From Candidatus Saccharimonadota bacterium (GTDB lineage: Bacteria; Patescibacteriota; Saccharimonadia; Saccharimonadales; Saccharimonadaceae): a stretch of DNA of 64,000 nt. Below the pieces are notes generated by a model. It was not told where the DNA came from. It did not search any database and worked only from the letters and a program-made list of their open reading frames with translations. Positions 33,192 through 33,560 of the stretch are shown in pieces. Position 1 is the first letter of the stretch, and every line of letters begins with the position of its first letter. The DNA is taken from assembly GCA_024402895.1 (NCBI GenBank), contig JAKSSX010000004.1, positions 1 through 64,000 on the forward strand, given 5' to 3'. Made by a program: the position numbers and the translations under genes.

Positions 33192-33262
33192 GGTGCGTTG
33201 GCGGAGCAGTTACGCAGAGGTCTGCAAAACCTCGTAGACCAGTGCAACTCTGGTACGCACCT
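33192..33262 (+). tRNA. tRNA-Cys (anticodon GCA)
   Basis: Acceptor GGTGCGT/ACGCACC, D-arm GCGG/ACGC with loop AGCAGTT, anticodon arm GAGGT-CTGCAAA-ACCTC and T-arm ACCAG-TGCAACT-CTGGT. CCA is not encoded (discriminator T, then CCAAG does not follow directly). Two elbow positions are unusual: position 18 is A instead of G, and position 55 is G instead of T. Confidence 0.9.
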
Positions 33263-33284
33263 CCAAGATTATTTAGGTCAGTTG

Positions 33285-33371
33285 GCCCGAGTGGCGGAAT
33301 TGGTATACGCGGCAGACTTAAAATCTGCTTCCTTTACCGGATTATGAGTTCGAGTCTCATCTCGGGCACCA
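33285..33371 (+). tRNA. tRNA-Leu (anticodon TAA)
   Basis: Acceptor GCCCGAG/CTCGGGC, anticodon loop CTTAAAA between GCAGA and TCTGC, long class II variable arm, T-arm ATGAG-TTCGAGT-CTCAT. CCA is encoded at 33369-33371. Its D-loop keeps G18G19 and its T-loop is canonical, unlike the flanking tRNA-Cys and tRNA-Gly. Confidence 0.95.
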
Positions 33372-33450
33372 CGACTTTTAAGATGGCTATATATTTAAAA
33401 GCTAAAATAACTAGCATTTTAAATAAGACCGTGTTATAATCAATTCAGTT

Positions 33451-33526
33451 GCGGGTTTAGCTCAGTTGTTAGAGCGCTTCCTTGCCAAGGAAGAGGTCGA
33501 GAGTTAGAGTCTCTTAACCCGCACCA
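33451..33526 (+). tRNA. tRNA-Gly (anticodon GCC)
   Basis: Acceptor GCGGGTT/AACCCGC, D-arm GCTC-AGTTGTTA-GAGC, anticodon arm CTTCC-TTGCCAA-GGAAG, T-arm GAGAG-TTAGAGT-CTCTT, CCA encoded (33524-33526). Position 19 is T instead of G and position 56 is A instead of C, so the usual G19-C56 elbow pair appears as U19-A56. A TATAAT box lies about 12 bases upstream (33435-33440). Confidence 0.93.
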
Positions 33527-33537
33527 TTCAAAGAAAT

Positions 33538-33560
33538 TCACCGAAAGGTGATATTTTTTT
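33538..33560 (+). terminator. Terminator after tRNA-Gly
   Basis: TCACC (33538-33542) pairs with GGTGA (33547-33551) around a GAAA tetraloop, followed by a run of T. Confidence 0.8.

Follow-up and report, generated by a model that had tools for sequence, protein, structure and literature searches.

Two of three tandem tRNA genes in a Saccharimonadia genome carry changes at the D-loop/T-loop elbow that alter a tertiary contact on both of its sides. These genes very probably encode ordinary, essential elongator tRNAs in which the elbow has been kept by compensatory change. The contacts concerned, G18-Psi55 and G19-C56, maintain the L shape of all tRNAs. Textbooks give both as constants, and the usual explanation is structure together with reading by the ribosome, RNase P, and modifying enzymes; reviews hold U55, G19, and C56 to be universal or nearly so. 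The window, meaning the whole 64,000-nucleotide stretch that was analyzed, is contig C16 of a 785 kb genome in 21 contigs (88% complete) from an organism of the class Saccharimonadia. By ARAGORN, Rfam, and direct reading of the sequence, the genes for tRNA-Cys(GCA), tRNA-Leu(UAA), and tRNA-Gly(GCC) lie in tandem on the plus strand, with the following features:

33192..33265, plus strand: tRNA-Cys(GCA) (ARAGORN; RF00005, 48.6 bits), sole copy found genome-wide, CCA encoded
33205..33211, plus strand: D-loop of tRNA-Cys, AGCAGTT (A14 G15 C16 A18 G19 U20 U21), with A18 at 33208
33243..33249, plus strand: T-loop of tRNA-Cys, TGCAACT, of UGNRA type (U54 G55 C56 A57 A58 C59 U60), with G55 at 33244
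33285..33371, plus strand: tRNA-Leu(UAA) (ARAGORN; RF00005, 60.3 bits), canonical elbow, control within the cluster, CCA encoded
33451..33526, plus strand: tRNA-Gly(GCC) (ARAGORN; RF00005, 70 bits), sole copy found, A73, CCA encoded
33464..33471, plus strand: D-loop of tRNA-Gly, AGTTGTTA (A14 G15 U16 U17 G18 U19 U20 A21), with U19 at 33469
33504..33510, plus strand: T-loop of tRNA-Gly, TTAGAGT (U54 U55 A56 G57 A58 G59 U60), with A56 at 33506
33538..33558, plus strand: terminator-like hairpin and T run 3' of the tRNA cluster, a putative terminator (consensus scan only)

In standard numbering, tRNA-Gly(GCC) has U19-A56, still a Watson-Crick pair but not G19-C56, exactly as the initial annotation had read it. 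The other readings made there, A18-G55 in place of G18-U55 in tRNA-Cys(GCA) and a canonical tRNA-Leu(UAA) between the two (D-loop AATTGGTAT, T-loop TTCGAGT), were borne out as well. The window tRNAs exceed the RF00005 family cut-off, with stems intact and CCA present. Minimum-energy folds of the single genes gave imperfect cloverleaves, which carry no information on tertiary contacts. The initial annotation had also held that the changes were not a sequencing-wide error, and the same paired swaps do occur in hundreds of unrelated, independent assemblies, with stems and CCA intact. This excludes chance and sequencing error; nothing was found in favour of assembly error or pseudogenes either, which can be given almost no probability.

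In the class, tRNA-Gly(GCC) was sought with an open pattern in which the D-stem and anticodon loop were fixed and positions 18, 19, 55, and 56 were free. With an 8-base D-loop, the pattern had matches in 57 of 195 class genomes, while a loosened form had matches, partly by chance, in 188 of the 195; the true matches listed were all U19-A56 or A19-U56. Position pair 19-56 was tabulated for tRNA-Gly(GCC) in 99 class genomes (28 families, 63 genera) and was U-A in 73 and A-U in 26, with no G-C and no mismatch, and both states were present within genera g3 and g8. A tree of 73 TruB proteins, drawn from the genomes under comparison, gave at least seven switches of the Gly state, only two of them on supported branches; switch counts on this tree, built from a single fast gene, are approximate. 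A canonical G19-C56 pattern for tRNA-Gly(GCC) was matched in just one of 393 class genomes, and that gene (G476:C23:42-93) is located at the edge of a contig of only 4.2 kb. Its position 73 is the bacterial-type U73, where the class has A73; the gene is most likely foreign and was rejected as a genuine canonical tRNA-Gly(GCC) of the class. A Saccharibacteria-type tRNA-Gly was seen in the bin of another Patescibacteria family (G716:C252), on a contig that is likely foreign. Outside the class, Patescibacteria matching the pattern mostly had G19-C56 (18 of 19).

A control scan of 84,980 species genomes left A or T free at 19 and at 56, so that half of the possible outcomes were mismatched, and returned at least 119 loci. 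Among the matches listed, ARAGORN identified tRNA-Gly(GCC) in 118 loci, and all 118 were A-U or U-A. Outside the Saccharibacteria, the listed matches included Bdellovibrio and its relatives, Bacteriovorax, Labilibaculum, Crocinitomix, and further Flavobacteriales, each with A19-U56 and U73. In Labilibaculum filiforme, the six tRNA-Gly genes of GCTC type that were found (three GCC, three UCC) all had A19-U56, while tRNA-Ala had G19-C56. Recurrence in Bdellovibrionota and Bacteroidota suggests that the favouring factor is a property of tRNA-Gly.

The genome-wide tRNA set was gathered via Rfam RF00005. In the window's genome, tRNA-Ala(UGC) (L011) and tRNA-Ala(CGC) (L018) have A19-U56 and tRNA-Ala(GGC) is canonical. 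Among 79 tRNA-Ala genes from 61 class genomes, 19-56 was G-C in 65 and A-U in 14, never mismatched, and the swap was scattered over all three anticodons; in contrast to tRNA-Gly(GCC), tRNA-Ala moves between G-C and A-U. The remaining class I tRNAs were canonical in eight genomes, tRNA-Pro and tRNA-Arg too. In 380 Patescibacteria, an open scan for tRNAs of any kind that have G18 but lack G19 gave 62 matches, almost all Gly(GCC) and Ala, with one Thr and one Val, and 19-56 was Watson-Crick in 61 of the 62. The exception, a tRNA-Val(GAC) with C19 and C56 (G623:C7, L282; D-loop AGATGCTTA), is the sole uncompensated 19-56 found. A tRNA with anticodon GGU (Thr) and A19-U56 occurs at G306:C8:19131-19182 in another Patescibacterium. 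When the tRNAs near scanned loci were de-duplicated and tallied, 130 had canonical D- and T-loops, 86 were non-canonical in both, two had a canonical D-loop with an odd T-loop (one of them a numbering slip), and none had an odd D-loop with a canonical T-loop; the Gly(GCC) genes in this tally were partly chosen by the search pattern, while the Cys, Ala, and other Gly genes were not.

The initial annotation had stated that both sides of a contact are altered in each case and had proposed covariation of 19-56 and 18-55 in relatives as the check. Both were confirmed: the alignments of Gly, Ala, and Cys genes contain no uncompensated case, save two tRNA-Gly from outside the class with C55 and G18. 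The inner contact is not absolutely locked everywhere. In the window's genome, tRNA-Gly(CCC), near 105118 of C12 (L033, L281), has C55 with G18 in the T-loop TCCGACT, which makes Psi55 impossible, and isolated Gly and Phe tRNAs elsewhere have C55 too.

For tRNA-Cys, 134 genes (42 families) were compared, covering the class and the phylum Patescibacteria at large. Every gene had either G-U (94) or A-G (40) at 18-55, and both states occurred inside eight families and seven genera. All 40 of the A18 genes have U54 G55 C56 R57, and the lone tRNA-Cys of the 134 without G19 has A19-U56. By mutual information over 93 distinct sequences and 1035 column pairs, 18-55 ranked second, behind the stem pair 28-42 and ahead of the anticodon-stem pairs 27-43, 30-40, and 29-41. 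Third was 16-59, a further elbow contact, with C-C and U-U as its main combinations and with coupling to 48; in the window's tRNA-Cys these two positions are 33207 and 33248. The Cys state switched at least 13 times on the TruB tree, with six switches forced by strongly supported branches alone, and in independent pairs 55 tracked 18 in six of six (sign test, p 0.03); the switches within genera do not depend on this tree. No coupling of the Cys and Gly states was seen in independent pairs.

Loss of TruB, the Psi55 synthase, was considered as the cause and rejected, as TruB_N was found in 76 of 80 genomes. The same count bears on relaxed selection, by which small genomes that had lost elbow-modifying or elbow-reading factors would tolerate such changes. 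Patescibacteria genomes are reduced and the changes are frequent in them, but Gly, Ala, and Cys have no uncompensated intermediates, other tRNAs are canonical, and the Gly swap is present as well in the 3.3-5.2 Mb genomes of Bdellovibrio and Labilibaculum, so that this explanation is improbable. In three genomes of genus g3 (G018, G068, and G073; L276-L278), the TruB_N match is in two pieces within one frame, as if the domain were interrupted by an insertion. In G062, from the genus of the window's genome, a 46-base match recurs nine times in near-identical form, spread over several contigs; this multi-copy repeat may be a mobile element.

Staphylococci have non-proteinogenic tRNA-Gly with anticodon UCC, present as extra copies, whose weakened elbow lets them escape EF-Tu. 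From this precedent, the initial annotation had hinted that the altered elbow could mark a specialised tRNA used outside translation, and it had suggested looking for a second, canonical tRNA-Gly(GCC). Such a tRNA could serve, for example, in building peptidoglycan bridges, and the affected species is indeed a tRNA-Gly. None was found in the window's genome (88% complete) or in complete relatives: one tRNA-Gly(GCC) was found in the former and one in the latter (G012, single contig). In the 53 long open reading frames of the window, GGU and GGC make up 1157 of 1259 glycine codons (92%). A cell-wall-only role is strongly disfavoured because the sole GCC gene found would have to serve the 92% of glycine codons that need GCC. 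tRNA-Cys, tRNA-Ala, and the Gram-negative Bdellovibrio also share the feature, and the elbow contact has been retained instead of being lost. On anticodon (GCC, not UCC), copy number, and codon demand, a cell-wall tRNA was rejected, and a non-translational role of any kind is very improbable. The staphylococcal tRNAs and this one are alike in being tRNA-Gly with an altered D-loop at 18/19; here the anticodon is GCC, the gene is the sole copy found, and the pair is restored. As far as sequence can tell, the window tRNAs are working tRNAs needed for the codons of the genome.

The favoured reading, ordinary elongator tRNAs with a compensated elbow, involves two different substitutions. One concerns the outer pair 19-56, which tRNA-Gly(GCC) and part of the tRNA-Ala genes have swapped for U19-A56 or A19-U56, with Watson-Crick pairing retained. 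The surface read by the L1 stalk, RNase P, and others is the face of the 19-56 pair (PMC4810234), and this flat face, on which elbow readers stack, should persist after the swap. In tRNA-Cys, the inner contact G18-Psi55 is swapped for A18-G55. In UGNRA loops, an A from outside the loop enters the stacking gap and commonly contacts the G, giving a composite GNRA fold (PMC2258182). The tRNA-Cys loop U54 G55 C56 A57 A58 fits UGNRA, the consensus of T-loops in rRNA and riboswitches, with A18 presumably as the inserted outside A, in the place between 57 and 58 where tRNA inserts residue 18. The covariation of A18 with G55 supports a putative contact of A18 with the loop G. By this geometry, which is predicted, tRNA-Cys appears to use the rRNA and riboswitch form of the same trap, and it would be without Psi55, there being no U to modify. 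Normal function in translation would be expected for both.

Compensation alone does not account for why tRNA-Gly(GCC) never returns to G-C. Passing from A-U to G-C by way of G-U should be easier than passing from A-U to U-A by way of a mismatch, yet the class repeatedly does the latter and never the former. This pattern, like the absence of G19-C56 from tRNA-Gly(GCC) of the class, suggests that a weak (A/U) pair is selected for, or that G19 or C56 is selected against. One form of such selection would be tuning, in which a weaker A/U pair at 19-56 offsets the strong, G/C-rich codon pairing of tRNA-Gly(GCC) and tRNA-Ala, on the ribosome or with EF-Tu; another would be an anti-determinant against an elbow-reading protein, and in either form the 18-55 change in tRNA-Cys would be a separate matter. 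The swap is nearly confined to Gly and Ala, G19-C56 is missing from tRNA-Gly(GCC) of the class despite repeated interchange of A-U and U-A (the one match in 393 genomes being the gene with U73 on the 4.2 kb contig), and the change recurs in Bdellovibrionota and Bacteroidota, with tRNA-Gly swapped and tRNA-Ala canonical in Labilibaculum filiforme. Against this, tRNA-Pro and tRNA-Arg are canonical despite G/C-rich anticodons, and most bacteria retain G-C in tRNA-Gly. Taken as a whole, the tuning or anti-determinant explanation is possible but more doubtful than persuasive, and either role in tRNA-Gly(GCC) is a guess. A broader proposal is that tRNA-Gly(GCC) has been selected throughout the class to avoid G19-C56 and yet keep a weak Watson-Crick pair, by tuning or as an anti-determinant, that this happened independently in Saccharibacteria, Bdellovibrionota, and Bacteroidota, and that tRNA-Cys has repeatedly turned its T-loop into a UGNRA trap lacking Psi55. 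This combined account is put forward tentatively, as one that could well be correct though somewhat more apt to be wrong.

No paper found in the open-access literature names the exchanges A19-U56, U19-A56, or A18-G55. Selections of suppressor tRNAs with random D- and T-loops reportedly exist and may have reached similar solutions in the laboratory. The sequences compared here amount to a natural experiment in which a joint that ranks among the most conserved in biology has been swapped repeatedly, and the covariation separates two needs: the pairing matters and the letters do not, save in one tRNA that seems to forbid G-C. They also supply ready natural variants with which to test which features are recognised by elbow readers and whether Psi55 is important to a given tRNA. 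Some caution is needed in annotation, as tRNA models trained on constant positions give such genes low scores.

The altered tRNAs can also be set beside other known systems. Like the canonical bacterial elongator tRNA (RF00005), they have the cloverleaf, sole-isoacceptor status among the genes found, encoded CCA, U8, A14, U54-A58, R57, and an elbow made of 18-55 and 19-56; they differ in having U19-A56 (Gly) or A19-U56 (Ala) for G19-C56, and A18-G55 (Cys) for G18-U55. The tRNA-Cys shares with the UGNRA T-loop, or type R1 lonepair triloop (PMC2258182), the sequence U54 G55 N R57 A58 and an A located outside the loop (A18) and covarying with the loop G, but the setting is a tRNA, whose loop is otherwise U-Psi-C-R-A with G18. 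Eukaryotic tRNA-Ala with unusual 15/48 and 54/58 (PMC7566577) similarly shows coupled changes of tertiary pairs that are specific to lineage and isotype, although the positions differ and the pairs described there were reported as unseen in bacteria.
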